From positions 36,668,629-36,732,628 of the forward strand of contig OY755240.1 in assembly GCA_963576725.1 (NCBI GenBank): a DNA stretch of 64,000 nucleotides, in the 5' to 3' direction. Below the pieces are notes generated by a model that saw only the letters and a program-made list of their open reading frames with translations, was not told the DNA's origin and ran no database searches. Below are positions 13,976 to 47,687 of this stretch, in pieces (the stretch's first letter is position 1; each line of letters starts with the position of its first letter). Source of the stretch: Azorinus chamasolen. Taxonomy: Eukaryota > Mollusca > Bivalvia > Cardiida > Solecurtidae. Both the position numbers and the translations under genes were made by a program.

Positions 13976-15406
13976 TCATCTATACAAATGATCAGACCTA
14001 ATTTTAAGAATAGAGAAGCAGGTTCTGGCTGACAATTTCACTAATTCATCATTGGAGAGGATAAACATAAATTTATCTTCATCGTTTAAGTCGAGGAAGC
14101 TTTCATCTATTTCAACTGCCTTTTCAAACAGAGCATTTCCTACTGATTGGTATGCAGGACAGTATAGTAGAACATGAATTTCTGTTTCAACTGAATTATT
14201 ACATATAGGACAGATCCTTTGTTCTACTGTCAGATTCTCATATCTGCCAGTTTCTAGTCTTATGGGTGCTACCCCACATCTAAATTTTGCCAGAACAGAT
14301 CTATGCTTAAAAGGCATATTGTTGAGGATATATACTTCTGTGCCATAGTTTTGTTTAAGTAGCCTGTAAGATCTTAATTTATTCCTTCCATTACCACTCT
14401 TACTAGTCTCTTGATTTATACTCCTTCTCCAGTCCTGGATATAACTAGTCATAGATTGTTCCTCAATAAATTCACAATAATTCTTGGATAAGTGAGAGTT
14501 ACAATTAAAAGACAAAATTGACAAGTTCAGATTGGATAAATGCTGAGTATAGTAATACTGCCAATTTCTACATTTATTACCTTGTTTTGTAAGGCAATAC
14601 TTAAACACTTTATAGTTTAATCTACTTTTATCCATAGCCTCAAACCTATACCATTGCCTAGATACAACCTTCCACTGTTTCACATGCGGTGGTTCCCAGC
14701 CTACCTCTCCATATAGAGCAGCGTTTGGGGTATATTTACCAGTACCAAGGTAGAACCTCATGGCCCTATTTTGAATAGCATTTATACATGAGTATGACTT
14801 ATTGCCCCATACAGATGCAGAGTATGCAATGACAGGCCATGCCATAGTTTCATATAGCTTCTTGAAAACATTATAAGGCATGTCGCCTATGCTTTTGGAC
14901 TTTGCAATTAGGAGACCAAGGGCTCTACCAGCACTTTGTGCTACATACTTGGCAGTTCTATCAAAGTCCAGGAATTCATTAAGCAGAAGACCAAGGTAAG
15001 TATAATGGCCAACTGTATCCAGATTATGAATACCACATGTGAAACGATGGGAGGTTTTAGACATGGATTGCGAGCGAAAATGGATCACCTTACTTTTTTG
15101 CGGGTTAACAGTCATAGAATTGACAGAGCACCATTCTGCCATGATATCCAGCATATATTGAAGATCTTCAGCATTTTGAGCACAAAGAACAATATCATCT
15201 GCATAGAGAAGTATACTGATTTTATCGTCATCTATCATTACACCTTTATCAGAGGCTCTGATCTTTACAACAAGGTCATTTATGAAAAGATTAAATAAAA
15301 GCGGTGACAAGGAACAACCTTGACGAAGTCCGCAGCTATTTTCAAACCAGTCTGTATAGTGACCATTTACTCTTAAGTGTGTGATAGATGGCAGTTGTGT
15401 GATCAC
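13976..15406 (-). CDS. LINE reverse transcriptase, C-terminal part (5'-truncated)
   Basis: This encodes the palm and thumb of a non-LTR reverse transcriptase. Visible motifs, in order: GLRQGCSLSPLLFNLFINDL (about residues 27-46), the catalytic YADD box in ISILLYADDIVL (about 63-74), VNPQKSKVIHF (about 101-111), and near the C-terminus a CCHC-type knuckle (CPIC..H..C, about 401-419). The first ten residues (15406-15377) are host-flank sequence: the element itself begins at 15374, so the displayed start codon is an accident of the insertion. No endonuclease domain remains. A LINE of the jockey/CR1-like kind is likely, but I cannot assign a clade. Intact frame of 466 element codons; immobile because truncated. 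Confidence 0.88.
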   Translation of the reverse strand: MITQLPSITHLRVNGHYTDWFENSCGLRQGCSLSPLLFNLFINDLVVKIRASDKGVMIDDDKISILLYADDIVLCAQNAEDLQYMLDIMAEWCSVNSMTVNPQKSKVIHFRSQSMSKTSHRFTCGIHNLDTVGHYTYLGLLLNEFLDFDRTAKYVAQSAGRALGLLIAKSKSIGDMPYNVFKKLYETMAWPVIAYSASVWGNKSYSCINAIQNRAMRFYLGTGKYTPNAALYGEVGWEPPHVKQWKVVSRQWYRFEAMDKSRLNYKVFKYCLTKQGNKCRNWQYYYTQHLSNLNLSILSFNCNSHLSKNYCEFIEEQSMTSYIQDWRRSINQETSKSGNGRNKLRSYRLLKQNYGTEVYILNNMPFKHRSVLAKFRCGVAPIRLETGRYENLTVEQRICPICNNSVETEIHVLLYCPAYQSVGNALFEKAVEIDESFLDLNDEDKFMFILSNDELVKLSARTCFSILKIRSDHLYR

Positions 15407-15825
15407 TGACCCTTGTCCCCTGCTGATAACATAGGGGATTTACTGACCATCTGGCACATTTGATCGTTTCCTAGGTCTATTCTGCAAATTAGCAGTATTT
15501 AGGCTGGGTTGATAATGTAATAATATAGTCTCAAAATGTCTAAACAATTTATTTTCATGCAATCTAGTTTGTTACTTTGTATTGTTAAAATCTTTGAATG
15601 CAGGAATCAAGGAAACTGACATTTAAAACACTGTAGACCCAGGCGGTGTGCGGTAAAAATGACACAATAGCTAAAAAACAACCCTCTGATCAGAGTATTC
15701 ACTGTTTTTTAAGCAAAATAATCTAGCAAATATAAGTCTTATAATTATAATGAATAAAATCTACAGTTAAACAATGGACCATTCCAGCATTCACAAATTA
15801 ACAGAATATAACACCTTTGCTATTC

Positions 15826-15885
15826 AGATCAGATTGCTCAAAAAGAGACTGTTTGATCAGGGGGTCTGCTCTGTTTACTGAACAC
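15826..15885. repeat. Hairpin repeat copy in the left arm
   Basis: Inverted halves 'cagatcagattg' and 'tgatcagggggtctgctctg' flank an A-rich loop. The mirrored copy is at 34752-34812 in the right arm. It is a diverged member of the 10245-type hairpin family. The remainder of 15380-16640 is non-coding palindrome-arm sequence with no other feature. Confidence 0.55.
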
Positions 15886-16644
15886 AGACTATTTAGGTTC
15901 CTTTTCCACACTTGCTAACTGAAAATAATTACTCATTTGTCACAAACAATGTATAAATTCTATGGTATTTTTTTCAAAACCACTTTTAAAATTTGACTGT
16001 ACATCGCTCTTTTTCAATCCACGATTATACGAGTATCGTCCAATTAATCGTTTAAAAAATATACCATGCATTAATTCAACATATTTGCATTTCATCACAA
16101 CTCACGTTGAATGAAAATAATATACGAGAAGTAAGCCTTAGTGTTTCCCGATTCCACGGTATTAGGAAAGCGATCCTCAGTGAAATGGCAATATAGCTAA
16201 AATTCGTCATTTTCACAGCTAAGTTTACACGTAATCTCTACACAAATTTCGATTAAATATGGACCATGCATTAGTTCATAGTCTTCAGAAACACTGGACT
16301 AAATATAAGCAACCACATATTTCAATAAGCTTACTTTTATTATCAAACCATATGAAAGCTAAACTATTTTTTTCGACCATTGCCGCCATTTTGTCAACAG
16401 TTCAGACGCACTGAAAATAACAGGTTCATTTCCGCCTCCGAAAAAACCATCAACTAAAATATTTTGTACCATAAACAAGGACCCATGAAAGAAAGTAATA
16501 CTTACCAAACACTTTCACACAAAAAAAATCTATCGATTCGAGACTTCAATACAGGAGAAATCGTCTTAAATTTGCGAGCAATTTCACGCCTCTTCCTCAA
16601 TGGCGTCCTTCGTCAACAATAAGATGCTGCGCTCTGATTGGTTG

Positions 16645-16859
16645 TGTAGTGGCCGGCACTAGGTCGGTCCCGGAATTAGACCAGCCCCTAATTCACGTGA
16701 GTCTCGTTCTGGGTTCCTGGCAAGCAGAGCGTTAGCGAGGTCCATACAAACGTGTTATCCAGTATTCCTAAAGACGATTCCGGAGTTATTCTGAAGCAAC
16801 CATCAAAGTATCAGACAGGGTAAGTGCACGCTACCTTTATCTATACCAGATATACTTTA
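16645..16859 (+). repeat. 5' LTR (215 bp)
   Basis: Starts TGTAGTGGCC and ends ATACTTTA. It is identical to 25177-25391 except three substitutions (in 'gagtctcg', 'gagcgtta' and 'cagatata'). The 3' end is TA instead of the usual CA, which both copies and the empty site support. It contains a consensus splice donor at 16820. No confident TATA box or poly(A) signal. Confidence 0.95.
16820..16825 (+). promoter_or_regulatory. Putative splice donor in the LTR
   Basis: ACAGG|GTAAGTGC matches the metazoan 5' splice consensus very well. If the transcript starts upstream in the LTR, this donor precedes the primer site and gag, the position used by retroviruses to make env mRNA. The matching acceptor would be the TTTTTTCAG at 22938-22946. 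Inference; no RNA evidence. Confidence 0.55.
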
Positions 16860-16860
16860 C

Positions 16861-16874
16861 TGGTGGCAGCGGTG
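16861..16874 (+). promoter_or_regulatory. Primer binding site, tRNA-Leu type
   Basis: TGGTGGCAGCGGTG begins one base after the LTR. It is complementary to the CCA-bearing 3' end of animal tRNA-Leu of the AAG/UAG type as I remember those sequences, over 14 bases. It would prime minus-strand DNA synthesis. Confidence 0.75.
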
Positions 16875-16925
16875 ATTGTTTTACGGCCCAATTAAGCCCT
16901 AAAATCACTTTATTTTTCCATTGAC

Positions 16926-16939
16926 ATTTGGCGCCAAAT
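16926..16939 (+). promoter_or_regulatory. 14-nt palindrome in the gag leader
   Basis: ATTTGGCGCCAAAT is perfectly self-complementary and lies between the primer site and the gag ATG, where retroviruses place the dimer-initiation palindrome. A GC core with AT flanks is compatible with a kissing-loop. Function is inferred from position only. Confidence 0.35.
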
Positions 16940-16985
16940 TTTTCGTCGTGTCCGCCATTTGCATTTTTCTTCATTACTGGTAAAC

Positions 16986-18560
16986 ATGTTCAGTCTGAAG
17001 GTGAATTTTGCGTCCGAGGATGAGATCCGTTACTTCCCCGGACTAACCCAAAAGGTCGTTTCAGAAATAATTCACATCAGACGATCCAAAAAGAATGTAC
17101 ATTTTCATGATATCAACGAGCGTCTTCGCAGTCGACTTCATGAAGATGTCATACCCTTGCTAGATTTCACTCCAAATCTAGAGTGGGAGGACTCAACGGT
17201 CATGAGGTCCACCCTTAATCAGGATCTCGGGTACCCTACCCCAGTTTCTGATGAGGAAATGGAAACAAGACTTCCCCCACCCACTGTAGATACTGGAGCC
17301 CAACGCTCTCAGGCCAGCGGTGACGAATTGATTAAGCAGCAACTGGAAACAGCTGCTAGGCTGCTTGCGTCAGCGGAGAAGTTGAGTGCTACAATACCAT
17401 CGGAGGGAGCCCGTGCAAAGGCACCGGCGACCGCCCCTCTGCCACAGACTGTTCCAGCCCATGCAGACGGGTATGCACACACAGCACCGGTGCAGCATGA
17501 TCAGCATTACATGCCAACACCGATGGTGCATGCTCAGCACCAGTTTCCCAGACGTCTGGATTTGGAGGAGGTACCAGGGGTTCCCCAGGTACCAACTCCT
17601 GCCATGTTGCCGTTGCCAGACCAGACCTCTGCATTTGCTCGGGCATATACGCCCCAGCCAGTGCAGAAGGGTGTACCAGCTTACCAGCACCAGATGGGAT
17701 CCCAGTACGGTCAAACCTTACCCCTGGGATATCCCCAAGACGTCTTTAGCCAGAAATCAAGACGTGGCCCTGCATTGAAGGACATACCACGCTCTATGTC
17801 CTATGATGGAAATTCGAGCTGGCGTTCCTTCCAAATGAAGTTTACGCAGTATGCTCAGGCCTACCAATGGACCGAAGAAGACTGCAAAACATGTTTGATC
17901 CATTGCCTCACAGGTAAAGCACTGGATCACTGCACACGTCTTTTGCAGTCTAATCCAAACCTGCCCTACAGACGGTTGTTGGCAAAATTAAACAGCCGAT
18001 TTGGCGCAGAGCTGCAAGCTTCAGCTCAAGCCAAATTTAATTGTGCCACCCAAACCAAAGGTGAGACAATCGAGGATTGGGCAGATCGTATCCAAGATCT
18101 GGCAACAGAAGCTTTCAGGACACTACCTGAAAGCTATTGCAACCGCCAAGCTATTGACAGATTCTGTCAAGGCGTAGCAGACTTTGATGCAGGCCACAGC
18201 GTATTCATGTGCAAATTTAATTCCATTGAAGAAGCCATGAATGAAATCCGCCTGTATCAACACAGCAAAAAGGTCATGGTTGGGAGTAGGCCAGATGCTT
18301 ACTCCGCAACAAATTATGAGGCAGCAGCTGCAGACGTTTGCGCTGTCCATCAGGATCCGGCTGTCTCGAACCTATCAAAGGAAATCGCCGATCTAAAAGA
18401 TCAACTAGCTAAGATTTCCTTAAGGTCTAGACGTCCATCAAGAAATCCTGATAAGCCCCGTCAGCCCCGTAAGTGCTATGTGTGTGGCGATTCCACCCAT
18501 TTAGCACGTGAGTGTCCAAAGCGTCATAGTGACACTTTAAACGCCAAAGGGTCGGGCTAA
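16986..18560 (+). CDS. gag: Gag polyprotein with HhH-like N-terminus and CCHC knuckle
   Basis: Structural protein that would build the particle and package RNA; 524 residues from the first ATG in frame (open codons upstream lack an ATG). Residues about 7-60 (ASEDEIRYFPGLTQKVVSEI onward) resemble a ComEA-type helix-hairpin-helix: acidic 'SEDE', 'FPGL' hairpin, following helix, 'INERL'. Then a Pro/Gln/His-rich linker (about 100-265), a capsid-like helical region starting near 'WRSFQMKFTQYAQAYQW' (about 270-420), a short coiled stretch, and a basic tail with one zinc knuckle CYVCGDSTHLARECPKR (C-x2-C-x4-H-x4-C). The frame is intact. Pol is reached by -1 frameshifting 18 bases before the stop codon. 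Confidence 0.92.
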   Translation: MFSLKVNFASEDEIRYFPGLTQKVVSEIIHIRRSKKNVHFHDINERLRSRLHEDVIPLLDFTPNLEWEDSTVMRSTLNQDLGYPTPVSDEEMETRLPPPTVDTGAQRSQASGDELIKQQLETAARLLASAEKLSATIPSEGARAKAPATAPLPQTVPAHADGYAHTAPVQHDQHYMPTPMVHAQHQFPRRLDLEEVPGVPQVPTPAMLPLPDQTSAFARAYTPQPVQKGVPAYQHQMGSQYGQTLPLGYPQDVFSQKSRRGPALKDIPRSMSYDGNSSWRSFQMKFTQYAQAYQWTEEDCKTCLIHCLTGKALDHCTRLLQSNPNLPYRRLLAKLNSRFGAELQASAQAKFNCATQTKGETIEDWADRIQDLATEAFRTLPESYCNRQAIDRFCQGVADFDAGHSVFMCKFNSIEEAMNEIRLYQHSKKVMVGSRPDAYSATNYEAAAADVCAVHQDPAVSNLSKEIADLKDQLAKISLRSRRPSRNPDKPRQPRKCYVCGDSTHLARECPKRHSDTLNAKGSG

Positions 18561-18597
18561 GGGACCAATCCCCGATCCATGAACCAGTCCCCGGTCC
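18536..18597 (+). promoter_or_regulatory. -1 ribosomal frameshift signal (gag-pol)
   Basis: Heptamer TTTAAAC at 18536-18542 lies in the exact gag phase (T TTA AAC, codons act-tta-aac). After a 6-nt spacer, GGGTCGGG (18549-18556) can pair with CCCGATCC (18571-18578), an 8-bp stem with one G-U. Loop bases 18562-18566 (GGACC) can pair with 18593-18597 (GGTCC), forming an H-type pseudoknot. The -1 frame is open from here through the protease. UUUAAAC is a known slippery site in viruses and retroelements; the folding is a pencil prediction. Confidence 0.82.
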
Positions 18598-20020
18598 AGA
18601 GCAGACAGTCAAACGCGAAGTAACAAGTACTTCGGCTCCTACCAAAGACAAGCAAGATCAGGAAAAGCAGTTAGGGTACCCAATAAACAGGGAACCAGTA
18701 ACTGTCATTGTGAGGATGCTCAAGTCTATGGCTACACTGACTGTTCCAATCATTGTTAATGGTCTGACAGTTAAAGCCATAGTTGATTCCGCGGCAGAAG
18801 TCACTATTATTTCTGACCGGATCTTTTCCAAACTGCATTCGGCGCCCCGCAAAGTCCGTGATGTCAGGTTAAACACGGCTGGTAGAGAACTGTCTATGAC
18901 AGGCTTCATAGCAGATCCATTTAAACTCAAAATTGGACCAAGTACACTTACTGCTCCAATTTATGTAGCTCCCATCGATCAAGACATGCTCCTTGGGATG
19001 GATCTGCTGCTTCAGGGAAAGGCTGTCATAAATATTGGACAGAATAAGCTGGTTTTCAATGGACATTCTATTGAAGCCGACTTGGGCGACTCTGACCGTC
19101 AGCCAAAAGTCAGCAGAGTTTCAGTCAGACGCCGTACATTGGTACCCCCTCACTCAGTTATGAAAGTAAACTGTGTGATGGATAACAATTTGCCAGACTA
19201 TGTGGTCGAACCAAACCCAGAATCGAAAGTGTTTGGTCCACGTGTAGTGCACACTGCAGACGATCAACCGATAATATGTGTTGTCAATACGTCTGATCGA
19301 CCCCAACTTTTAAAAAAAGGCAAGAAAGTTGGTCATGCCTATCCAATTGCCAGCTTCGTGGAAACAGACTATTGTGAGCCTCGTCCTTCTGTCCAGGGAG
19401 TCACAAAGACCCAGTCCCATCCCAGTCCTTTCACCATCATTCCTGAAAAGGACATGATTGAAGCTTCTTCCGAACACCTTTCCCCAGCTCAAAAGAACAA
19501 ATTGACGAACATCCTTACTACCTATCAGGATGTTTTCGCCATATCAGAGTTTGATCTGGGAACCTTTACTGGTGTCGAACACGATATCGACACTGGTGAG
19601 GCCAGGCCAGTAAAGCAACGCATGCGACGCACACCTGCATGCTTTGCAGATGAGGAAGAAGCACACCTGAAAAAGATGATAAAATCAGGCGTAATTCAGG
19701 AATCCACATCTGACTGGGCCTCTTCTCCGGTTCTCATACGCAAGCGAGATGGAAACATTCGCTGGTGCATTGACTACCGCGGGCTTAATAAAGCAACGGT
19801 AAAGGATGTATACCCTTTGCCTTTGATCGACGACTGCCTGGACACACTTTCAGGTAACGTATGGTTCTCCAAGCTCGATGCCAACTCCGCTTATTGGCAG
19901 GTTAACATTAAACCGGAAGACAGAAAAAAACCGCTTTCCATACAAAGTTTGGCCTGTACGAACATGTCAAGCTTGGTTTTGGGTTGTGTAACGCACCAGC
20001 TACATTTGCCAGAGTCATGA
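18542..20020 (+). CDS. pol: Pol part 1: protease and N-terminal half of RT
   Basis: The frame is open from the frameshift site with no stop, so no separate start is needed. Protease core: IVDSAAEVTIIS, where the usual D-S/T-G has Ala in the Gly position, and a downstream 'LLGMDLL' (the ILG(x)D-like flap end). RT fingers and palm: GVIQESTSDWASSPVLIRKR, then WCIDYRGLNKAT and FSKLDANSAYWQV, which carries the first catalytic Asp. Homology ends at a run of seven A at 19924-19930. Beyond it this frame continues as unrelated residues to 20020, while RT continues one frame back. A one-base loss in a homopolymer, biological or assembly-made, is the simplest reading. Confidence 0.9.
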   Translation, partial: RQRVGLRDQSPIHEPVPGPEQTVKREVTSTSAPTKDKQDQEKQLGYPINREPVTVIVRMLKSMATLTVPIIVNGLTVKAIVDSAAEVTIISDRIFSKLHSAPRKVRDVRLNTAGRELSMTGFIADPFKLKIGPSTLTAPIYVAPIDQDMLLGMDLLLQGKAVINIGQNKLVFNGHSIEADLGDSDRQPKVSRVSVRRRTLVPPHSVMKVNCVMDNNLPDYVVEPNPESKVFGPRVVHTADDQPIICVVNTSDRPQLLKKGKKVGHAYPIASFVETDYCEPRPSVQGVTKTQSHPSPFTIIPEKDMIEASSEHLSPAQKNKLTNILTTYQDVFAISEFDLGTFTGVEHDIDTGEARPVKQRMRRTPACFADEEEAHLKKMIKSGVIQESTSDWASSPVLIRKRDGNIRWCIDYRGLNKATVKDVYPLPLIDDCLDTLSGNVWFSKLDANSAYWQVNIKPEDRKKPLSIQSLACTNMSSLVLGCVTHQLHLPES

Positions 20021-22176
20021 ATCTGGTTCTTCGTGGTCTGAATTGGCAAACAGTTCTGGCGTTTCTCGACGACATACTTGTCCTTGGGAAAACCTTTGAA
20101 GATCACTTGGTGAATCTTGAATCCGCATTAAACCGTTTCAGATCCTATGGTTTAAAACTGAAACCCAAAAAATGCACACTTTTTCAAAAAGAAGTCGAAT
20201 TTTTGGGACGCGTAGTCAATGGTCAAGATTTATCAATGTCCGCGTCTGACATTAGCACAGTAAGCAACTGGCCAGTGCCCACTTGCTCCAAAGATGTTGA
20301 AAAGTTCATGGGATTAGTGAACTACCACAGAAATTTCATTCCAAATTTCTCAACAGTAGCTGAACCTCTGTACCAAGTTATAGGCAAATACAACTATAAA
20401 TGGACCACAGAGCAACAGGAAGCCTTTGACAAACTAAAAGAGCTTCTGACCACACCACCCATTTTGGCCGTACCTCGAAAGAATGGCGATTTTATCCTGG
20501 ATACTGATGCATCCAATTCAACTATTGGTGCAGTATTATCACAGGTTCAGGATGGTCAAGAGCGTGTTCTGTGTTATGGCAGCTTTGCCATGACTCGAGA
20601 ACAGCGCCGTTATTGTACAACGCGTAAAGAGTTATTAGCCGTTGTACGCTTCACTAGGCAGTATAGACACTACCTACTTGGAAAACCATTTACGGTTCGA
20701 ACCGACCACTCGAGCCTAACTTGGTTGCTCAATTTCAAGGACCCACAGGGACAACTAGCCAGGTGGATAGAAGAATTGTCCCAATACAACATGGTATTGA
20801 TACATCGTCCAGGCAAGAAGCACGGGAATGCTGACACGCTTTCCCGTATGCCACGACCCAATGACCACTGTAATGCATACACTGCAGATGTTGCATTGCA
20901 GGATTTACCATGTGGTGGATGCGACTATTGTAAGCGTGCTGATAAGAACTGGGGATCCTTCATCAGAGATGTTGATGAGGCAGTTTCGTTGACCATGGAG
21001 AACACCGGAGTAGGTGGGGTAAAGAGCAAGACTGCTCTTCACCTTCGTGGTGCGGAGGAAACTGAAACCTCCAGTCACGTTTCAGGACTACATAGTGAGA
21101 GGAGTTCACAGAGTACGTCGAAGCGGGGCAGATCATACAACTTACATCAGTCTACATTAGAGCAACCAGTTACTGTTGAAGGTGGCAAGCCGGCGAACGG
21201 TATAGACAATCACTTGGACAAAGTAACTGTCCAAGCCATCCATTGTTCCAAGCAGACAGAAGAAGAACCAGAGGTGTTTGTGGACATAACTTCTACAGAC
21301 ATTGGACACAGTGTGAGAGTCCACGGGATTAATTTGTCCTCAAGTGCACAGAAGTGCTGGGGTTTTGATCTAAAAGCAGTGAGATCAGCCCAGGAGGAGG
21401 ACAAAGACTTAGACATTATCCTTAAATGGACAGAGACGTCTGAGAGCCCTAGTGAAAGAGATTTGTTCTTGGCAAGTCCAGCGGCCAAGACATATTGGCT
21501 GAACAAAGAACGTTTTCAGCAGATAGAAGGCATTCTATATCACCACAGAGATGCCAATGATGACTTCGACATGGTTCTGCCAGAAAAACTGAAGCAGTCA
21601 GCCATAGAGGTGAACCATGATCTGCCGTCAGCTGGTCATCAAGGGATGGCCAGAACAAAAGGCCGTCTCAAAGAACAGTTTTACTGGTACAAGATGGGTG
21701 ATGACATTGCAAACTATGTAGCTAGCTGTGCAGTTTGCAATAAAAACAAGAAAGCCAACCGGTATGGGCATACTCCCATGCAGGAATACCAGGCGAGCGC
21801 TCCAATGGAGCGTGTGCATATAGACTTCATGGGTCCTCACCCAAAGACTCCGAGAGGCCATGAACATGTTCTGATGATGGTGGATCAATTCACTAAATGG
21901 GTTGAATGCGTGCATCTGCCATCTCAGACAGCTGACGTCACAGCTAAAGCAGCTGTGGACCACTTTTTCTCTAGGTTTGGATGCCCCTTTGAAGTGTTTT
22001 CCGACCAAGGCCGAAATTTCGAGTCAAAACTCTTTGCCGCTCTATGCAATGCACTCGAAATTCACAAAGCCAGGACAACGCCATACCGACCGTCAGTCAA
22101 TGGTCAGGTAGAACGCTTCAACCGTACCCTTATGGATGCTGTCAGGTGCTATATCAAGGATTCCCAGAATCAATGA
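19931..22176 (+). CDS. pol: Pol part 2: RT C-terminal half, RNase H, integrase to a premature stop
   Basis: Picks up RT just after the A7 run: NAPATFARVMN, then the catalytic FLDDILV box and KPKKCTLF. RNase H follows (ILDTDASNSTIGAVLSQ, KELLAV, VRTDHSSLTWL, NADTLSR). After a linker of about 200 residues comes integrase: the H-H-C-C zinc domain (NHDLPSAGHQG ... CAVC) and the D-D-E core (VHIDFMGP, VFSDQGRNF, NGQVERFNR). The catalytic residues that I can check are all present. The frame ends at TGA 22174-22176, yet clear integrase homology resumes in the same frame immediately after, so this is a nonsense mutation inside the gene rather than its natural end. Confidence 0.92.
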
Positions 22177-22881
22177 GATCTGCATCTGCCTCAGATAGCT
22201 GGAGCCCTTCGCAGTGCAGTAAACCGTAGTACTGGTTTTTCTGCCAACAAGCTAATGTTAGGTAGAGAGGTTAACACACCTGCATACCTAATGTTTCCAC
22301 ACAAGCCCGTGACTCCAGTCCCAGCAGACCAGTATGTGGCTACTCTCATGGAAAACATCGGAGTAGCCCATGCTTTAGCCAGAAGAAACCTGCAGACATC
22401 TTTGAAAAGAATGAAGAAGAACTATGACATCAGGGTCCTGCAGAGACCATACAAAGTAGGTGATGTTGTATACCTTTTGGACACAGCTGTTCTTAAGGGC
22501 CAATGCAAGAATCGGAGCTCTCCGTGGAAAGGACCAGCAGTGATCACAAAAACGATGTCGTCATCACTGTTCCGGGTCAAGCTCCGAAAGTCGGTGTTCG
22601 TGGTAAATCACGACAGGGTGAAACCGTGCCGGGACAAACTGTACCCCGCATGGATTACGCAGCACTTGGAGAATCCGGATCTCTCGGCAGACGCGGTAGA
22701 AGATGACCCGTCAGTTGTGCATTGTTCCTGTCGACAGCCGTGGCAGGGCCGCTTCATGATCCAGTGTGACTCATGTGACATATGGTACCATGGGTCATGT
22801 GTCAATGTGACAGCGTCCGACGCCCTTCAAATCAACAGGTTTCTGTGCAGTGACTGTGGTGGTGTTAAGTCAGGAAGGTAA
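22177..22881 (+). CDS. pol: Pol part 3: integrase C-terminus with GPY/F-like module and PHD finger
   Basis: Same frame as the part before the stop. Residues continue the integrase core's C-terminal helix (LPQIAGALRSAVN, then NKLMLGREVN). Next is a GPY/F-type DNA-binding module (SSPWKGPAVITKT ... VVNHDRVKP, about 22517-22630). The end is a PHD zinc finger (CSC ... QCDSCDIWYHGSC ... FLCSDC, about 22726-22857) with the C4-H-C3 ligand order complete. PHD fingers commonly read histone H3 tails, so a role in target-site choice is plausible; that is inference. Pol stops at 22879-22881, two bases into a GTAAGT splice donor. Confidence 0.88.
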   Translation, partial: DLHLPQIAGALRSAVNRSTGFSANKLMLGREVNTPAYLMFPHKPVTPVPADQYVATLMENIGVAHALARRNLQTSLKRMKKNYDIRVLQRPYKVGDVVYLLDTAVLKGQCKNRSSPWKGPAVITKTMSSSLFRVKLRKSVFVVNHDRVKPCRDKLYPAWITQHLENPDLSADAVEDDPSVVHCSCRQPWQGRFMIQCDSCDIWYHGSCVNVTASDALQINRFLCSDCGGVKSGR

Positions 22882-22946
22882 GTATAATCATTTAAACAGC
22901 AAAAGAACATAGATTTAAGGTGTTTTCTCTCTTTTGATTTTTTCAG
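22878..22946 (+). promoter_or_regulatory. Intron-like segment and ORF3 splice acceptor
   Basis: GTAAGT opens at 22878 inside the last pol codon. A pyrimidine-rich tract ends in TTTTTTCAG at 22946, and the next base is the A of the ORF3 ATG. Splicing these 69 bases does not fuse pol to ORF3, since the joined pol frame would stop after a few codons. The acceptor therefore makes more sense with the LTR donor at 16820, giving an mRNA in which ORF3's ATG is the first codon after the junction. Confidence 0.6.
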
Positions 22947-23267
22947 ATGGCATCAAACCTAACCGAAGGAGATTTGGAGAAGGCTAGCAGAAATAAACAG
23001 CTGCTAGCTGCCCGTGGCTTGGTTCAGGCAATAAAAGGCCTGGACATCCCAGAGGACGTCAAAGAGGACCTCCTTCTCAAACAGGCTAAGGTGGCCCAGA
23101 AGCAGAAATCTGGGAATTGGCTAAACCTGGTGGCTACAGAGGCGATGGAACTTGGCTTCCGTAGTCAGTCTTGGTGGAGTCAAACATCGCTCCACTCAGA
23201 GAGTCTGACGTCCAGCAACGAAGAAACAGGCCTGTCCAGGCAAAAACCTCTGACCTGGACAGGGTAG
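22947..23267 (+). CDS. ORF3 N-terminal segment (before frameshift)
   Basis: It starts with ATG directly at the splice acceptor: MASNLTEGDLEKASRNKQLL and onward, a helical, Lys/Glu-rich region with no family that I recognise. Around 23165-23220 the reading frame switches. The frame used by the long downstream ORF is closed by a TAG at 23162, while this frame runs out at 23267. I read both as one broken gene. The residues after about 75 in this segment are probably out of frame. Confidence 0.65.
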   Translation: MASNLTEGDLEKASRNKQLLAARGLVQAIKGLDIPEDVKEDLLLKQAKVAQKQKSGNWLNLVATEAMELGFRSQSWWSQTSLHSESLTSSNEETGLSRQKPLTWTG

Positions 23268-25078
23268 CTGCACACATGGCACAGACAACCTTGTCTGACG
23301 TATCATCGGTGACGTCAGATCAAGAAGATACGTTGCTTGACAGGTCAAAGGCTGGGGAGCTGGAACAATCTCCTGCCCCTCAGAAAGAAGCAAAAGAGAA
23401 ACCTGTGGCCAAGTCGGAGCTTAAATCTCCCGCTTCCACAGCAGCAAAAGAGATATCGGCACCTACTAGGAAACAAACACCACCGCCTAGTAGGAAGCGT
23501 ACACCGCCGCCTAGTAGGAATCAAACACCACCTCCTACTAGGAAACTAGATGAGGTTCCTCCACCACGCAGATCCCCTCGTAAACATGAGCGGTCTCGGC
23601 GTTTGGACGAGGACAGACACAGAGACAGGCGTGGCTCTGGTGAGCAAAACAGAGACCAACGCAGACATGAAAGGTCTCGACATGAGCATAGGCATGGCGA
23701 TAGTCATCATCATCGAGACGCATCTTCGCGTCGAGATGATCGCAACCAAGCTAGCCGTAAACGACCAGCTCAGTCGTATGCGGAAGTCACTGCAGCCAAG
23801 AAATCCAGGGAGACTGTCAGCCAGAAAAAGAGCGGTCTTTGCTGCATTGGCTCTTGTAAACAGCAGCTGTCGAGGAAGCATGCCATGGACATACATGTTC
23901 CTGGTGTGTTTGACGAACACCAACAACTGTCCGAGCAAGTGCGGACACACCAGACTACCGCACTCAACCTCTGTGCTAAGTGGCTAAACCACTCAGCAGA
24001 CTTGAATGCTCTAGTCCGTCTGGTCAACCTAGCAGACGACATACCAAAAGGTCTCAGGCTTTCCGCTAGGCAAGAGCAATGGGCCAACGCGTTATGCCAG
24101 GACATGAGACTGGAGCGCCCGGAGAACTTTTTCCTGGCACCCTTGAATTCGCCTGCCCTCTTATCACATTGGAGGGTTATGGTGGTCATCCTGAGTCTGC
24201 TAGACAGTCGCCGCGCACAGGACCTCAGGACAAACTTTCCTGTGATTCCGCGAGATTCTGTTCCTGAAGGATGGGACAGTCATTTCCATCTGGATCGACT
24301 GGCCGACAGGACACACCATGCAGTGGACGACTTTCCTGCATTGGTTCATTCTGCCGCATCAAGTCAGGAGTATGAGGTGCAGATTATGGGTGGCATCGCT
24401 GTATTTTGCGATGCCGTATCATATCCAACCAGCGATCAGGTTGCTTCGCTGGCGTCTCAAGGGGTAGGTACCACAATTGGTATCCATCCAAAATCAGCCA
24501 GCAGCGTCTCAGAGGAAGATTGGACTCGGTTTGAGCAGGCCCTGTCCATTCCAGGAGTTAAGGGATTCGGTGAGGTTGGGCTCGACCACACGACCCCATC
24601 ATCTACCTGGTCAATCCAGCATCAAGTGCTTGATAGGGCCCTTACATTTTTGCGCCCTGAACATGTGCTTGTTCTACACAATAGAGCACCCAGAGAGGAC
24701 CCAGACAGGGAGATGATACAGCTCCTGTATCATCTCAAAGGTGTGGTGCCAGTGGACCAAAGAATCCATGTCCACTGTTTCCGGGGAGGCGTTGACATTA
24801 TGGACCTTTGGATAAAAACATTTTCAAATGTTCATTTTGGCTACACACCACTGATAGCGTATGCTTCAAAAGACAGCAAAGCAGCGCTTCAACAGATGCA
24901 CCAAGACAGACTTCTCTTGGAGACTGATGTTCCTTATTTCAAAACAAAGGAGTGTCGGTTCAGCACACCTGGCTTCCTGGGGGTCGCAGCAAATACTGTC
25001 GCTCTCATCCGGGGTCAGGATCCAGAGACCATCCTGCAGCTAGCCGCCACAAATGGCCGCCGGCTGTATGGCATATAG
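23171..25078 (+). CDS. ORF3 main segment: disordered Arg/Pro-rich arm, C2HH motif, TatD-family nuclease
   Basis: About 635 codons; no ATG at the 5' edge because the true start is upstream. Residues about 95-125 hold repeats of TPPPSRK type, and 130-200 are rich in Arg/His/Asp (SR-like, possibly RNA-binding). A C-x3-C-x8-H-x4-H motif (CIGSC..H..H) is near 225-245. The C-terminal 270 residues match TatD metal-dependent hydrolases: DSHFHLD (His 371/373), GIHP, GEVGLD (Glu 468), VLHNRAP (His 503), HVHCFRGG (His 535), LLETDVPY (Asp 586) and terminal RLYGI. All expected metal ligands are present. TatD enzymes are DNases/exonucleases; animal TATDN2 also has a long disordered N-terminus. Acting on replication intermediates is inference. 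Confidence 0.88.
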   Translation: MVESNIAPLRESDVQQRRNRPVQAKTSDLDRVAAHMAQTTLSDVSSVTSDQEDTLLDRSKAGELEQSPAPQKEAKEKPVAKSELKSPASTAAKEISAPTRKQTPPPSRKRTPPPSRNQTPPPTRKLDEVPPPRRSPRKHERSRRLDEDRHRDRRGSGEQNRDQRRHERSRHEHRHGDSHHHRDASSRRDDRNQASRKRPAQSYAEVTAAKKSRETVSQKKSGLCCIGSCKQQLSRKHAMDIHVPGVFDEHQQLSEQVRTHQTTALNLCAKWLNHSADLNALVRLVNLADDIPKGLRLSARQEQWANALCQDMRLERPENFFLAPLNSPALLSHWRVMVVILSLLDSRRAQDLRTNFPVIPRDSVPEGWDSHFHLDRLADRTHHAVDDFPALVHSAASSQEYEVQIMGGIAVFCDAVSYPTSDQVASLASQGVGTTIGIHPKSASSVSEEDWTRFEQALSIPGVKGFGEVGLDHTTPSSTWSIQHQVLDRALTFLRPEHVLVLHNRAPREDPDREMIQLLYHLKGVVPVDQRIHVHCFRGGVDIMDLWIKTFSNVHFGYTPLIAYASKDSKAALQQMHQDRLLLETDVPYFKTKECRFSTPGFLGVAANTVALIRGQDPETILQLAATNGRRLYGI

Positions 25079-25090
25079 GGAACCCTCCTC

Positions 25091-25176
25091 AAGGAGAAGA
25101 GAGGGAGGAGGAGGATGACTCTGCCCCCGGCAATACGGACCCAGGGCTCCCCCCTTCAAAAGAAAAGAGGGAGGAG
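25091..25176 (+). promoter_or_regulatory. Polypurine tract, duplicated
   Basis: The purine run 25158-25176 (AAAAGAAAAGAGGGAGGAG) abuts the 3' LTR and would prime plus-strand DNA. A related purine run at 25091-25115, also containing AGAGGGAGGAG and preceded by a similar pyrimidine stretch, lies about 65 bases upstream, so the tract looks duplicated. Confidence 0.8.
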
Positions 25177-25391
25177 TGTAGTGGCCGGCACTAGGTCGGT
25201 CCCGGAATTAGACCAGCCCCTAATTCACGTGAGCCTCGTTCTGGGTTCCTGGCAAGCAGAGCATTAGCGAGGTCCATACAAACGTGTTATCCAGTATTCC
25301 TAAAGACGATTCCGGAGTTATTCTGAAGCAACCATCAAAGTATCAGACAGGGTAAGTGCACGCTACCTTTATCTATACCAGAGATACTTTA
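25177..25391 (+). repeat. 3' LTR (215 bp)
   Basis: Same length as the 5' LTR with three substitutions. It follows the polypurine tract and is followed by the GTTG target duplication at 25392-25395, then palindrome-arm sequence ('attaattttgaacgacagc'). Confidence 0.95.
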
Positions 25392-25647
25392 GTTGATTAA
25401 TTTTGAACGACAGCATCTTTGACCAGATCGACTCGATGCCACTCAGTCTGTATTTACTTTATCACGAAATAAATACAGATGCATTTACTTCGTGATCTTA
25501 TATGCGAATTAACTAATTTACGTTTCATTCGGATCCAAACTGTTTGCCTATGCTGTTACGCTCGGTGTTTCAAATTTTTCATCTGTTAAACTGTTATCGT
25601 CCAAATCAATTATATATGTGAATTATAATTACAATTAATTGGGTGAC

Positions 25648-25740
25648 AGGGTAGCGAAATGACTTCCCGCAAGGGTGCGAATTGACTGTAGCGAAATGGT
25701 CAGGGTAGCGAAACGATGTGTAGCGAAACGTCCGTATACC
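25648..25740 (-). repeat. CATTTCGCTACCC minisatellite, left arm
   Basis: Three to four units of 'gtagcgaaatg' with spacers. The right arm copy (33625-33745) has one more 'accctgaccatttcgct' unit, a copy-number difference between otherwise near-identical arms. Confidence 0.75.
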
Positions 25741-27241
25741 GTTTTACCCTGTCACCGGTTATAAAAAGTCACTCCGTTACAAGATACAAAAATCTTTATT
25801 TGGAGCACAGGGGTCTGGACCGCTTCATGGGGGTCTATATGTACTATATAATAACAAGGGTTCCAACTAGCAGAACGGATATCCGTGTACCACGAGTACA
25901 ATATGACTGTAACTCTTACAATTTAAATGATAATTTCGTAATTCGTTCGGCTATTGAAAGCCAATATATTTTTCTATCAAATAAATATAATCTTATAACT
26001 TATGAACAAGTATCAATCCAACAATGATTTTTCTCAAAATTGCATGTGTTTTTTAGTTCATTGACAAACGTTCGTTCACCCCGGTTTCATTATAAAACGG
26101 CAATAACCTGGCAATTTGCAGTTTAAAAAAGGCCGATTCTATAGGGCGAATCTCTTCTTCCTGTGACTGGCCGCCTTCGTCGTGCCGAATAATCTGCCAG
26201 TTATACGCAATAATACCCGCCCTTCCCATTGATATTTTGGAATAGCTTTTTTTGTCTGGTTTGCTTTGTCACCTGAGATTTAAATATCTCAAGCGACTTT
26301 GCTTCTGCGATGTTTGGTGGTAGTGCATTCCAGTCTTTAGTAGTTTGGTAGAAGAAACTGTAAAGAATGCAGCCGTCAGTGTACTAACATTGTAGAGCAC
26401 ATTTTGTGTTATTGTGATAAGAACGACACTCAAATAAAGGCGTTATGGGACACAATAATTGAGTACAATGGAAGAGAGGAGTTTGAACGGATTGTGCGTT
26501 TTCCGGCTCATGATCAGTGTGCTGCTGTACTGCATATTTTAGTAACAATAGTAGATAGCGGTCTGTACTTGCCTGGTTTACCTGCAGTCACTCAACGCAT
26601 ATTTAGGTGACTTTATTGTCTGGTCTGCAGTCATACTTGAGATACAAATACCGATGTAAGCTTCAAATCTGTGGTACATCTTAATTTGTGTTTTATATGG
26701 TAGAGGTTAAGAGTTTGGTTCTGAGTAGATGGTACCATATGGAGACGGTTGCGTGATTTTATTAGCGCACTAAACCGCTAGAGTATATGCATATATAAAA
26801 CTTATGCATATAGGACTTAAGGCATGCATGTGATGTGTGGTATTACTGGTATGTACTGTCTTATTTGACAGTAGGTGAATCTGTAGGTGGAAATGTGGTG
26901 TAGTCGGTGTAGATTCTGATCAGTGACATGTCTAGCGTGGCGGCTGATCTGGGTCAACACTGCTTGCGTTATCATTGGTTGGATTTTGTAGAGAAACCCG
27001 TGTTGTAAGTCATTGTTGCTTTACTTGAAACCTAAGTGAGACAGCATGTTAACATGTATAGTACATGCATTATTTCATTTGTGTGTTTCTGTTTTCCATT
27101 ATGTATGTGCGTTAGGGTGAAATAACTCGTTTACCTATCTCCCTTTTCCTAATTTCGTTTCGTAGGAAAAGGTTGACGGGATTCACTCGAGTTACTTCTA
27201 ACCATATTCGTCAGAGAGACGCCTGTCTCTTAGCGGTATTA

Positions 27242-27302
27242 TAAACAGAGCAGATCAAGGTCTGACGATTCCTACAAGAGTCATCTGATCAGAGTCTGAT
27301 CT
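27242..27302. repeat. Hairpin repeat copy, left arm
   Basis: Starts 'taaacagagcagatcaaggt', centre 'cctacaag', then 'atctgatcagagtctgatct'. Mirrored at 32090-32152 in the right arm, with a diverged copy at 40989-41052. Confidence 0.65.
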
Positions 27303-27774
27303 GGTTGTTGGTTGGATAGGTCCGTTGATACTTTTTTCAGTTGCCGGACACGTTGTTGCAATGTATTGATATAAAACCTTACCTGATAATATTTCATACA
27401 ATAATTATTTATTACATGGGCATTCATCAGGTAAAGTGTTTAATGATCAGAGGAATCGTTAGGGTGTTTATATACTTGCTGCCCGAGAGACTTCGGGTAT
27501 TAATGTTTGTGTATTTCTCTCGTTCGTTTATATATTAACGATAGTATATATGCGGAGATGGTAGCGTTATTCAGACGGTGCGGACACCGTATATCTGTTG
27601 CCTTGTAAACTGTATGGATCTAGATTAGACGTTGGGTAACGTGGTGTCTTATCCTGTACTATACGGTATACTTGGGCACAGTCCTGGTGGTGTTGATTGT
27701 AGCAGGTAACGTCTGACTAGAGTTAGGCTGGGTCCTAGTAGTGGTTACCGTAGCATCCCCCCTTAGACTTTTTT

Positions 27775-28786
27775 TCATGGGTACCAAATTGTTCGTTGGG
27801 GTCCTCAGAACACATTTTGAGCATGCCCCCAAAAATAAATTTGTCCCCGCTGTTTTATTTAACGGTTTCCATGGTAACCCGAGGTAATTTTCGAAACTAC
27901 CTTGGTTCAGAAAATGCGTCATAACTTTGCTTTTAGAAGCAATAGAAGGACAAAACAAGTACCAAAGTAAAGCAGAGACATATAGCTTGAATATGATATA
28001 TGATTTAATTAATATTCATAAATGCATTCTTATGAATATTAACGAGGAAGTAAAAAGTAAAAAAAAAATGCATTTTTTTAGAAAAAAGGAGTTTGTTGTT
28101 TAGTCTGATAGGCTTATTAATGCACAGAAATTATTGAATTTCGGTTTAAGTTGTTTGTTGGGGTCCTTAGAATACATTTTGAGTATTTCCCCAAATAATT
28201 TTGTCCCATCTATGTTTTATTTAACGGTTTCCATGGTAACCCGAGGTAAATTTCGAAACATCCTTGGTTCAGAAAATGAGTAATAACTTTGCTTTTAGAG
28301 GCAATAGAAGGACAAAACAAGTACCAAAGTAAAGCAGAGACATATAACTTGAATATGATATATGATTTTATTAATATTCATAAATGCATTCTTATGAATA
28401 TTAATGAGAAAGTAACAAAATGCGGTGGTTTTTTTTAGAAAAAGGGAGTTTGTTGTTTAGTCTGATGGGCTTATTAATGCACAGAAATGATTGAATTCAG
28501 GTTTAAATTGTTTGTTGGTGTCATCAGAACACATTTTGAGCATGTCCCCAAAGTAATTTTGTCCCATCTATGTTTTATTGAGCGGTTTCCATGGTAACCC
28601 GAGGTAAATTTCGAAACATCATGGGTTCAGAAAATTCGTAATAACTTTGCTTTTAGAGGCAATAGAAGGACAAAACAAAAACCAAAGTAAAGCAGAGACA
28701 TATAACTTGATTATGATATATAATTTTAATAATATTCATAAATGATTGCTTATGAATATTAATGAGGAAGTACAAAAAAATCCGCT
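27775..28786 (-). repeat. Tandem array of about 360-bp units, left arm (3 units)
   Basis: Units share 'ggtttccatggtaacccgag', 'gcaatagaaggacaaaacaa', 'aaagtaaagcagagacatat' and 'tatgaatattaa(t/c)gag'. The last marker recurs near 28036, 28396 and 28752. Some frames across it look protein-like by chance. No recognised family. Confidence 0.85.
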
Positions 28787-31620: not shown

Positions 31621-34600
31621 GTCTAAGGGGGGATGCTACGGTAACCACTACTAGGACCCAGCCTAACTCTAGTCAGACGTTACCTGCTACAATCAACACC
31701 ACCAGGACTGTGCCCAAGTATACCGTATAGTACAGGATAAGACACCACGTTACCCAACGTCTAATTTAGATCCATACAGTTTACAAGGCAACAGATATAC
31801 GGTGTCCGCACCGTCTGAATAACGCTACCATCTCCGCATATATACTATCGTTAATATATAAACGAACGAGAGAAATACACAAACATTAATACCCGAAGTC
31901 TCTCGGGCAGCAAGTATATAAACACCCTAACGATTCCTCTGATCATTAAACACTTTACCTGATGAATGCCCATGTAATAAATAATTATTGTATGAAATAT
32001 TATCAGGTAAGGTTTTATATCAATACATTGCAACAACGTGTCCGGCAACTGAAAAAAGTATCAACGGACCTATCCAACCAACAACCAGATCAGACTCTGA
32101 TCAGATGACTCTTGTAGGAATCGTCAGACCTTGATCTGCTCTGTTTATAATACCGCTAAGAGACAGGCGTCTCTCTGACGAATATGGTTAGAACTAACTC
32201 GAGTGAATCCCGTCAACCTTTTCCTACGAAACGAAATTAGGAAAAGGGAGATAGGTAAACGAGTTATTTCACCCTAACGCACATACATAATGGAAAACAG
32301 AAACACACAAATGAAATAATGCATGTACTATACATGTTAACATGCTGTCTCACTTAGGTTTCAAGTAAAGCAACAATGACTTACAACACGGGTTTCTCTA
32401 CAAAATCCAACCAATGATAACGCAAGCAGTGTTGACCCAGATCAGCCGCCACGCTAGACATGTCACTGATCAGAATCTACACCGACTACACCACATTTCC
32501 ACCTACAGATTCACCTACTGTCAAATAAGACAGTACATACCAATAATACCACACATCACATGCATGCCTTAAGTCCTATATGCATAAGTTTTATATATGC
32601 ATATACTCCAGCGGTTTAGTGCGCTAATAAAATCACGCAACCGTCTCCATATGGTACCATCTACTCAGAACCAAACTCTTAACCTCTACCATATAAAACA
32701 CAAATTAAGATGTACCACAGATTTGAAGCTTACATCGGTATTTGTATCTCAAGTATGACTGCAGACCAGACAATACAGTCACCTAAATATGCGTTGAGTG
32801 ACTGCAGGTAAGCCAGGCAAGTACAGACCGCTATCTACTATTGTTACTAAAATATGCAGTACAGCAGCACACTGATCATGAGCCGGAAAACGCACAATCC
32901 GTTCAAACTCCTCTCTTCCATTGTACTCAATTATTGTGTCCCATAACGCCTTTATTTGAGTGTCGTTCTTATCACAATAACACAAAATGTGCTCTACAAT
33001 GTTAGTACACTGACGGCTGCATTCTTTACAGTTTCTTCTACCAAACTACTAAAGACTGGAATGCACTACCACCCACATCGCAGAAGCAAAGTCGCTTGAG
33101 ATATTTAAATCTCAGGTGACAAAGCAAACCTGACAAAAAAGCTATTCCAAAATATCAATGGGAAGGGCGGGTATTATTGCGTATAACTGGCAGAGTATTC
33201 GGCACGACGAAGGCGGCCAGTCACAGGAAGAAGAGATTCGCCCTATAGAATCGGCCTTTTTTAAACTGCAAATTGCCAGGTTATTGCCGTTTTATAATGA
33301 AACCGGGGTGAACGAACGTTTGTCAATGAACTAAAAAACACATGCAATTTTGAGAAAAATCATTGTTGGATTGATACTTGTTCATAAGTTACCGTTATAA
33401 GATTATATTTATTTGATAGAAAAATATATTGGAAATTATCATTTAAATTGTAAGAGTTACAGTCATATTGTACTCGTGGTACACGGATATCCGTTCTGCT
33501 AGTTGGAACCCTTGTTATTATATAGTACATATAGACCCCCATGAAGCGGTCCAGACCCCTGTGCTCCAAATAAAGATTTTTGTATCTTGTAACGGAGTGA
33601 CTTTTTATAACCGGTGACAGGGTAAAACGGTATACGGACGTTTCGCTACACATCGTTTCGCTACCCTGACCATTTCGCTACCCTGACCATTTCGCTACAG
33701 TCAATTCGCACCCTTGCGGGAAGTCATTTCGCTACCCTGTCACCCAATTAATTGTAATTATAATTCACATATATAATTGATTTGGACGATAACAGTTTAA
33801 CAGATGAAAAATTTGAAACACCGAGCGTAACAGCATAGGCAAACAGTTTGGATCCGAATGAAACGTAAATTAGTTAATTCGCATATAAGATCACGAAGTA
33901 AATGCATCTGTATTTATTTAGTGATAAAGTAAATACAGACTGAGTGGCATCGAGTCGATCTGGTCAAATATGCTGTCGTTCAAAATTAATCAACCAATCA
34001 GAGCGCAGCATCTTATTGTTGACGAAGGACGCCATTGAGGAAGAGGCGTGAAATTGCTCGCAAATTTAAGACGATTTCACCTGTATTGAAGTCTCGAATC
34101 GATAGATTTTTTTGTGTGAAAGTGTTTGGTAAGTATTACTTTCTTTCATGGGTCCTTGTTTATGGTGCAAAATATTTTAGTTGATGGTTTTTTTGGAGAC
34201 GGAAATGAACCTGTTATTTTCAGTGCGTCTGAACTGTTGACAAAATGGCGGCAATGGTCGAAAAAAATAGTTTAGCTTTCATATGGTTTGATAATAAAAG
34301 TAAGCTTATTGAAATATATGGTTGCTTATATTTAGTCCAGTGTTTCTGAAGACTATGAACTAATGCATGGTCCATATTTAATCGAAATTTGTGTAGAGAT
34401 TACGTGTAAACTTAGCTGTGAAAATGACGAATTTTAGCTATATTGCCATTTCACTGAGGATCGCTTTCCTAATACCGTGGAATCGGGAAACACTAAGGCT
34501 TACTTCTCGTATATTATTTTCATTCAACGTGAGTTGTGATGAAATGCAAATATGTTGAATTAATGCATGGTATATTTTTAAACGATTAATTGGACGATAC

Positions 34601-46932: not shown

Positions 46933-47687
46933 ACGAAACCGATCGATACTTTAACCAAATGGCCAACCTACTTGACCAAAGCAAGGAAATTCATCACCCC
47001 AGAGAGAGAAGCCAAAACCATAATACCACTATCCAGAAGAAAATGAAAGAAAAAGCTGAAATCCTTATATACCGGGTTAGAACTGAACCCATAGTTGACA
47101 TTGGTCACGCCAATCATGTTATCCGGGCCTTAGACAGCGAACAAGATATCCATCAGCAAAATGAAAATGAAGCTGATACTACACCACAACCAGCTTCAAG
47201 ACTTAGCTACACAACCAAAAAGATATCTGAAATGCAGAATGAAGATGAAGATCTGAGTATAATCCAAGAATGGTTCAAACGAAAAGATATGCCAGACAAA
47301 GACGAGGTAGCCGATTACAGTCCAGCAGTTAGAAATTACTGGCTCAACTCAGACAACATAATACAGCGTGATGAAGTGCTGTACCAAAAGCGCTACTCTA
47401 CGACAAAGAAATTTGACTACCAGCTTCTGCTCCCAAATCACTTTGGAGTCAACAAACCCTCCAAGCAAACCGGACTGAAATTTCATTGGTACAAGATGGA
47501 CCAGGACATTAAGAAGTTTATCAGAAGCTGTAACACCTGTATAACAGGGCATGTACAATACTCCTGTAATCATCACAGAAACCCAAGACGAAGACGAAGG
47601 GCTCAACCAAAACCTGTCTGTCATCCCATTAGAACTACATGTATCAACATGGGCCATAAATCGAGCCAGACAAAGCCAGAAGTTTAG
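46926..47687 (+). pseudogene. Pol remnant: RNase H-integrase linker and integrase zinc-domain stub
   Basis: Overlaps the gag stop in another frame. Residues around DEDLSIIQEWFKRKDM, SPAVRNYWLN and HWYKMDQDIKKFIRSCNTC align with the region just before and within the integrase zinc domain of the 16645 element (YWLN ... YWYKMGDDI ... CAVC). The first zinc-ligand His pair is lost by a small deletion and no D-D-E core follows. Protease, RT and RNase H are wholly absent, so a deletion joined gag to the 3' part of pol. Confidence 0.75.

Follow-up and report, generated by a model that had tools for sequence, protein, structure and literature searches.

A TatD-domain gene as a conserved third open reading frame in a Ty3/Gypsy retrotransposon lineage of the bivalve Azorinus chamasolen

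The element described in the present study is a Ty3/Gypsy long terminal repeat (LTR) retrotransposon of 8,747 bp, which occupies positions 16645-25391 of a 64,000-nucleotide stretch of the genome of the bivalve Azorinus chamasolen (assembly GCA_963576725.1, contig OY755240.1, positions 36,668,629 to 36,732,628; hereafter the window). Downstream of pol, it carries a third open reading frame (ORF3), the product of which ends in a TatD-type hydrolase domain. Our analysis confirmed that this TatD-bearing ORF3 is real, lineage-wide and selected: it recurs at the same position behind the integrase, with open frames, a conserved active site, purifying selection and paired LTRs around it. Because many related copies that moved recently share this gene order, the TatD enzyme is regarded as a kept part of the element rather than a stray host gene.

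Conservation of ORF3 across the host genome

The initial annotation of this DNA, made from the letters alone, had described an LTR retrotransposon with a TatD-type hydrolase as its ORF3 and had named profile hidden Markov models among the means of checking it. The Pfam profile TatD_DNase (PF01026) matched residues 371-636 of the reading frame that starts at 23165 (E 6.8e-34; 117.8 bits against a curated cut-off of 27 bits), which bears out this description. The metal ligands listed at that time (residues 371/373, 468, 503, 535 and 586, numbered in a frame from 23171) were exact and correspond to H373, H375, E470, H505, H537 and D588 in the 23165 frame. The domain thus holds the HxH, E, H, H and D ligands of Class II, following the HxH class definition of PMC10085689. 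PF01026 also exceeded its cut-off in four other families of the element (defined below), and was the sole Pfam domain in the ORF3 TatD frames of the window and the eight relatives that were scanned.

In the host assembly (1.72 Gb, 137 contigs), the window ORF3 query gave 72 matches, which were read as 68 loci including the window copy; L011 and L014 among them are one copy. These genome searches score the best candidates only, and the counts of matches and co-occurrences given here are, therefore, lower bounds. The recurrence of the pol-TatD order, a point raised by the initial annotation, was clear: 65 of the 68 loci retain all or part of the integrase-PHD end upstream on the same strand. As for the exceptions, L012 and L022 look deleted in the integrase-PHD region, while L060 has no integrase-PHD sequence in the stretch read, though an integrase-PHD match lies 3.5 kb upstream. 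An intact TatD domain without stops is present in 62 of the 68 loci; grouping these at 85% identity gives nine families, the representatives of which are 32-70% alike in this domain. Across the 62 loci, the E, H, H and D ligands are present in 62/62, and the two histidines of HxH in 61/62 and 62/62. Since five sister copies are open as a single frame over 710-722 amino acids, ORF3 is normally one reading frame, and a chance open reading frame was ruled out by the TatD profile match together with open frames of 669-785 amino acids in many copies.

Searches with other parts of the element extended this picture. The integrase-PHD query and the PF01026 query each returned at least 150 matches, every one of the latter above the cut-off, and the ORF3 of family 8 (at least 90 matches) found TatD reading frames behind integrases merely 44-49% like that of the window. 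A TatD or ORF3 match lies within 6 kb downstream of at least 95 of the 150 integrase-PHD matches; by integrase identity, the fractions are 8/8 at 90% or more, 63/95 at 50-62% and 24/47 at 40-49%, all lower bounds. Conversely, an integrase-PHD match lies within 6 kb upstream of at least 86 of the 150 TatD matches. The remaining 55 of the 150 integrase-PHD matches have no scored TatD match within 6 kb, among the best candidates only, and many of them are short or broken. The initial annotation had named copies without ORF3 as a finding that would count against its reading; on testing, other copies were seen to keep ORF3. A class of PHD-integrase elements of 44-49% identity without TatD was considered on an early count of 0/41, but was overturned by the 24/47 of the 40-49% class.

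Several TatD matches in very long open frames (929-1033 amino acids; for example, C7:58581058, C7:26667263 and C5:57003163) were also noted, and several of them stand behind integrases of the 45-49% class as larger ORF3 variants. Separately, 37 of the 150 PF01026 matches, with similar scores and open frames of 474-487 amino acids, make up another multi-copy TatD family (for example, G000:C7:7663736-7664548 and C12:9706597-9707412). Stops occur in four of the 37, and none of the 37 has a scored integrase-PHD match within 6 kb upstream; this family is possibly another mobile element with TatD.

The TatD domain evolves under purifying selection, as the initial annotation had envisaged. Within seven families, dN/dS (the ratio of non-synonymous to synonymous substitution rates, Nei-Gojobori) was 0.10-0.42, in a set in which family 4 shows no synonymous difference, family 8 has a single member and L011 and L014 are both counted. 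With independent pairs, the corresponding ratio of proportions, pN/pS, was 0.11-0.35 in seven families, and the pooled pairs held 94.5 synonymous and 79.5 non-synonymous differences, where non-synonymous sites are expected to prevail by approximately 3:1 (binomial p 2e-17 for the excess of synonymous changes, with no correction for transition bias). Between families, only the pair of families 1 and 3 has a dS below 2, with a dN/dS of 0.145; six other unsaturated pairs gave an uncertain 0.17-0.29 at a dS of 2.2-3.2. Trees of the integrase-PHD piece and of the TatD domain (17 sequences each) agree on a group of families 0, 1, 3, 4 and 5 (support 94/96 and 90/92) and on families 1 and 3 within it (97/93 and 97/96), which is consistent with shared descent of the two parts, and the branching order inside the larger group differs between the trees.

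Some points weigh against selection and common descent as read here. The independent pairs of family 4 have 0 synonymous and 3 non-synonymous differences and, thus, no ratio; dS between families is saturated in 29 of 36 pairs; and the selection set excludes the 6 of 68 loci in which the domain is broken or incomplete, which favours low ratios. The two trees also conflict on families 6, 7 and 8: that of TatD joins 6 with 7 (95/95, with a long-branch flag), whereas that of the integrase joins 6 with 8 (85/92) and 7 with 2 (66/77), the integrase pieces of families 6 and 7 being just 80 and 128 residues long.

A single capture of a host TatD gene by the window copy, now in decay, was the alternative envisaged in the initial annotation, and the broken state of this copy (see below) would agree with it. 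However, the number of copies and families, the recurrence of ORF3 behind integrase-PHD sequences across them and the presence of relatives from other species refute a one-off host insertion. Neutral decay is likewise contradicted by stop-free domains, near-invariant ligands and dN/dS values well below 1, and we regard this explanation as practically excluded.

The mobility of ORF3-bearing copies is indicated by their ends. In eight families, the likeness 3' of ORF3 ends at a fixed point, beyond which the flanks are unrelated in most copies, and right ends consist of a purine tract followed by TGTNGTGR, a pattern that was seen first and then sought in that same form; family 8 has too few loci for this comparison. 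LTR queries gave 40 matches in the host genome for family 1 and 21 for family 4. ORF3 loci lie between paired LTR matches in 10/11 cases for family 1 and 6/7 for family 4 (16/18 together), the latter count taking in L016, which was left out of the domain set. Fifteen of the 16 LTR-to-LTR spans are 9.09-9.17 kb and one is 8,429 bp; two added TatD matches near LTR matches of family 1 have spans of 9,112 and 6,221 bp. In several LTR pairs both members score the same and are 100% identical to the query, and these insertions are therefore recent.

Architecture of the window copy and its insertion

Pfam profiles gave the domain order gag, protease, reverse transcriptase (RT), RNase H and integrase, followed by a PHD finger, and the best match of the RT in the PDB was Ty3-G (E 8e-74). 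The features are as follows (window coordinates).

16641..16644, no strand: target-site duplication GTTG, left copy
16645..16859, +: 5' LTR, 215 bp, TG...TA
cut 16819/16820, +: donor-like site AGG|GTAAGT in the 5' LTR, scored on sister copy L008
directly 3' of the 5' LTR: TGGTGGCAGCGG, candidate primer-binding site
16896..18557, +: gag; PNMA and Retrotrans_gag above cut-off, CCHC knuckle slightly below
18533..20017, +: protease and first part of RT
19912..22173, +: remainder of RT, RNase H, integrase H2C2 and core, starting at a frame break
22177..22878, +: C-terminal part of integrase, PHD finger (PF00628)
22879..22946, +: spacer, starting with GTAAGT (preceded by AG)
end of the spacer, abutting the ORF3 ATG, +: acceptor-like TTTTTTCAG, scored on sister copy L008
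22947..23264, +: ORF3, first frame, with the apparent conserved N-terminal domain
23165..25078 (25075 without the stop), +: ORF3, second frame, 637 amino acids and stop
23837..23896, +: C-x4-C...H-x4-H finger-like motif
24275..25072, +: TatD_DNase domain (PF01026), HxH class
24281, 24287, 24572, 24677, 24773 and 24926, +: starts of the TatD ligand codons
25158..25176, +: purine tract (polypurine tract), adjoining the 3' LTR
25177..25391, +: 3' LTR
25392..25395, no strand: target-site duplication GTTG, right copy
33991..33997, -: empty target site, within the inverted copy of the flanking DNA

ORF3 is bordered by the integrase/PHD end (22878) on its 5' side and by the purine tract on its 3' side, and its location inside the LTRs and before this tract, as originally claimed, was upheld, since the tract ends at 25176 and the 3' LTR starts at 25177. 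One point was corrected: in this copy, ORF3 consists of two overlapping frames (22947-23264 and 23165-25075) and thus has a frame break. The pol of the window copy is broken as well: the RT changes frame at approximately 19.9-20.0 kb, and 22174-22176 is an in-frame stop. The two LTRs show 3 differences.

The second frame runs from a basic Arg/Pro/Ser linker through a C2H2-like finger and a further conserved region to the TatD domain. The four ligands of the finger motif are invariant in a six-row alignment (A1), and the N-terminal approximately 100 residues of ORF3 align among seven families (families 6 and 7 left out) and the sequences P0001, P0003, P0007, P0008, P0009 and P0011; judging from this alignment, they look like a conserved domain. 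Neither the finger nor the N-terminal part matched a Pfam family above cut-off (DUF3379 was below it).

The claim that ORF3 moves with the element was supported by an empty site. The flanks recur inverted within the window (15375-16644 against 35259-33991, 99.1% identity; 25389-28777 against 33997-30612, 97.9% identity); the empty duplicate reads GATTGGTTGATTAATT, and the filled site reads GATTGGTTG, the element and GTTGATTAATT. The element is bounded by the GTTG duplication, and the inverted duplicate, a paralogous and not an allelic site, is empty; ORF3 therefore came in as part of the element. The arms of the inverted duplication (98-99% identity) differ by the element and contain internal repeat units of approximately 360 bp.

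Expression and possible function of the ORF3 protein

Translation of ORF3 from a spliced subgenomic RNA, with a donor near the LTR end and an acceptor at the ORF3 ATG in the manner of retroviral env, appears likely from the signals in the DNA. With splice-site weights taken from textbook frequencies, a pyrimidine-rich acceptor-like YAG was found 0-4 nucleotides before the ATG in seven of the nine families (p 0.003-0.06 each against shuffles; Fisher 2e-6 combined). The best donor-like site in the LTR lies 39-87 nucleotides from the LTR end in eight families (Fisher 0.006), with p-values against shuffles of 0.034-0.042 in three families, 0.12-0.16 in three and 0.49-0.59 in two. Several observations speak against this mode of expression. 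The acceptor-like sites of families 6 and 7 are well upstream of the ATG and outside the scoring; only three of the eight LTR donors are below 0.05 singly, those of family 4 (0.59) and family 7 (0.49) resembling shuffles; and the p-values are not independent because the families share descent. Moreover, a short intron is an alternative because the spacer before ORF3 in the window family starts with a donor-like GTAAGT.

Regarding function, we slightly favour an explanation in which ORF3 would be a fixed, spliced third gene of an old but recently mobile Ty3/Gypsy group marked by a PHD-finger integrase. Its protein may bind nucleic acid through the basic linker and finger, and its TatD domain, of the HxH class as in TATDN2 and TATDN3, would then serve as a metal-dependent nuclease on the replication intermediates of the element; RNA-DNA hybrids, single-stranded 3' ends and abasic sites in cDNA are candidate substrates. 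That the domain is catalytically active is probable, and the chances that it acts on the element's own intermediates are about even. Human TATDN2 is described in PMC12709183 as an RNase that resolves R-loops, and TATDN1 and TATDN3 in PMC10085689 as 3' exonucleases and apurinic/apyrimidinic (AP) endonucleases.

The main rival to action on element intermediates is a counter-defence role, in which the enzyme would remove nucleic acids used by host sensors or small-RNA silencing, or resolve R-loops at element copies, and thereby keep the element expressed. A nuclease of the TatD type whose N-terminal half is basic would be suited to such a role, the loss of TATDN2 raises R-loops in medaka germ cells according to PMC12709183, and a weak match was found to QatD, an anti-phage TatD (padloc library, E 4e-8). 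However, these features also agree with an action on intermediates of the element itself, and we consider the host-side role to be rather unlikely. Repair of abasic sites or uracil in element cDNA, similar to the dUTPase of other retroelements, is a still less probable task of ORF3: TatD enzymes have an AP endonuclease activity according to PMC10085689, but for TATDN2 that paper only assumes it. It is highly improbable that the TatD fold is non-catalytic and that ORF3 chiefly serves as an accessory protein of the nucleic-acid-binding or env-like kind. Its long basic linker and finger and its env-like position would be in keeping with such a protein, but no metal ligand is missing from more than one of the 62 loci, across families only 32-70% alike, and no Pfam env family was found in the window ORF3 pieces or the eight relatives.

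In the usual view, LTR elements synthesise cDNA with RT and RNase H and leave the remainder to host enzymes. That many families have carried a TatD nuclease under selection suggests that such an enzyme pays at some step or against some host barrier. On a broader and more tentative view, toward which we remain somewhat sceptical, a whole animal Ty3/Gypsy clade with a PHD-finger integrase and a spliced TatD gene, at least as old as the split of the host from other bivalves unless passed sideways, might depend on its own TatD for a replication step that in other LTR elements falls to RNase H or to flap- and end-processing enzymes of the host, and the second multi-copy family without that integrase (37 matches, 474-487 amino acids) might also have taken up TatD. 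What animal TatD enzymes do in vivo is still under study (PMC12709183), and the element-encoded set represents a natural test bench for their substrates.

Relatives and comparable systems

Captured enzymatic reading frames in LTR elements are already known from bdelloid rotifers (as ORF3s) and an orchid; TatD is a new variant, with unusually strong evidence for conservation. Among the papers listed in a search of the CC-licensed (Creative Commons) PMC literature, with Repbase and Dfam outside its scope, none dealt with TatD in such elements. The closest parallel is offered by the Juno and Vesta elements of bdelloid rotifers, LTR retrotransposons with an enzymatic, non-env ORF3 after pol that is also a nuclease and is said to be expressed from spliced messages (PMC5408684). 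It is, however, a DEDDy (RNase D-like) exonuclease, whereas the present elements combine TatD with a PHD integrase, and Pfam detected no DEDDy exonuclease domain in the ORF3 TatD frames. Furthermore, according to PMC5408684, the extra bdelloid frames do not depart significantly from neutrality, in contrast to the clear purifying selection found here. Gypsy elements of Phalaenopsis similarly keep an added nucleic-acid enzyme across subfamilies, but are 25-kb plant elements with an AlkB-like m6A demethylase frame (PMC9289625). Env-bearing Ty3/Gypsy elements of the errantivirus-like type likewise have, between pol and the polypurine tract, a third gene that starts at an acceptor-like site; the ORF3 described here differs in that it encodes a predicted nuclease with no env-family match.

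TATDN2, TATDN3 and bacterial YcfH resemble ORF3 in PF01026, the HxH motif and the remaining ligands, and a profile of the nine families matched the solved structures of YcfH (1e-24), TATDN3 (2e-14) and TATDN1 (8e-10). Nevertheless, the retroelement-type TatDs have their own N-terminal domain and finger, and in a tree of the domain with one TATDN2 and two bacterial TatDs as outgroup, their 17 sequences form one clade (95/96). It contains three subclades (96/98, 91/91 and 84/79), each of which includes sequences from other sources.

The window ORF3 protein retrieved a Dreissena polymorpha protein (43%, 11 member sequences), four other proteins and gibbon TATDN2, and P0007 was added by an alignment search; the ORF3 of family 4 retrieved P0008 (52% over 99%), P0009, P0010 and P0011. 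The latter is Ruditapes philippinarum LOC132736836, a gene model with the N-terminal part and finger and without the TatD domain. ORF3-related proteins thus come from Dreissena, Ruditapes (partial model) and metagenomes, and we infer that these foreign proteins sit in an integrase context. Because the public model P0011 resembles the N-terminal part of ORF3, transposon frames are probably present among annotated genes, and some TatD-like or uncharacterised bivalve gene models may be of this nature. The viral contigs scanned gave no match to the TatD domain of the window and, when queried with an alignment, four distant TatD loci of 24-27% identity; phages gave no integrase-PHD match. The family 4 search also returned P0012 and P0013, which are bacterial-looking TatD-radical SAM fusions.

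Two minor features of the window were also recorded. The N-terminal part of gag (16896-18557) has a weak helix-hairpin-helix match (PF12836, below cut-off), and a decayed second Gypsy-like element lies at 46066-47540, with gag-like (20%) and pol-like (28%) matches.
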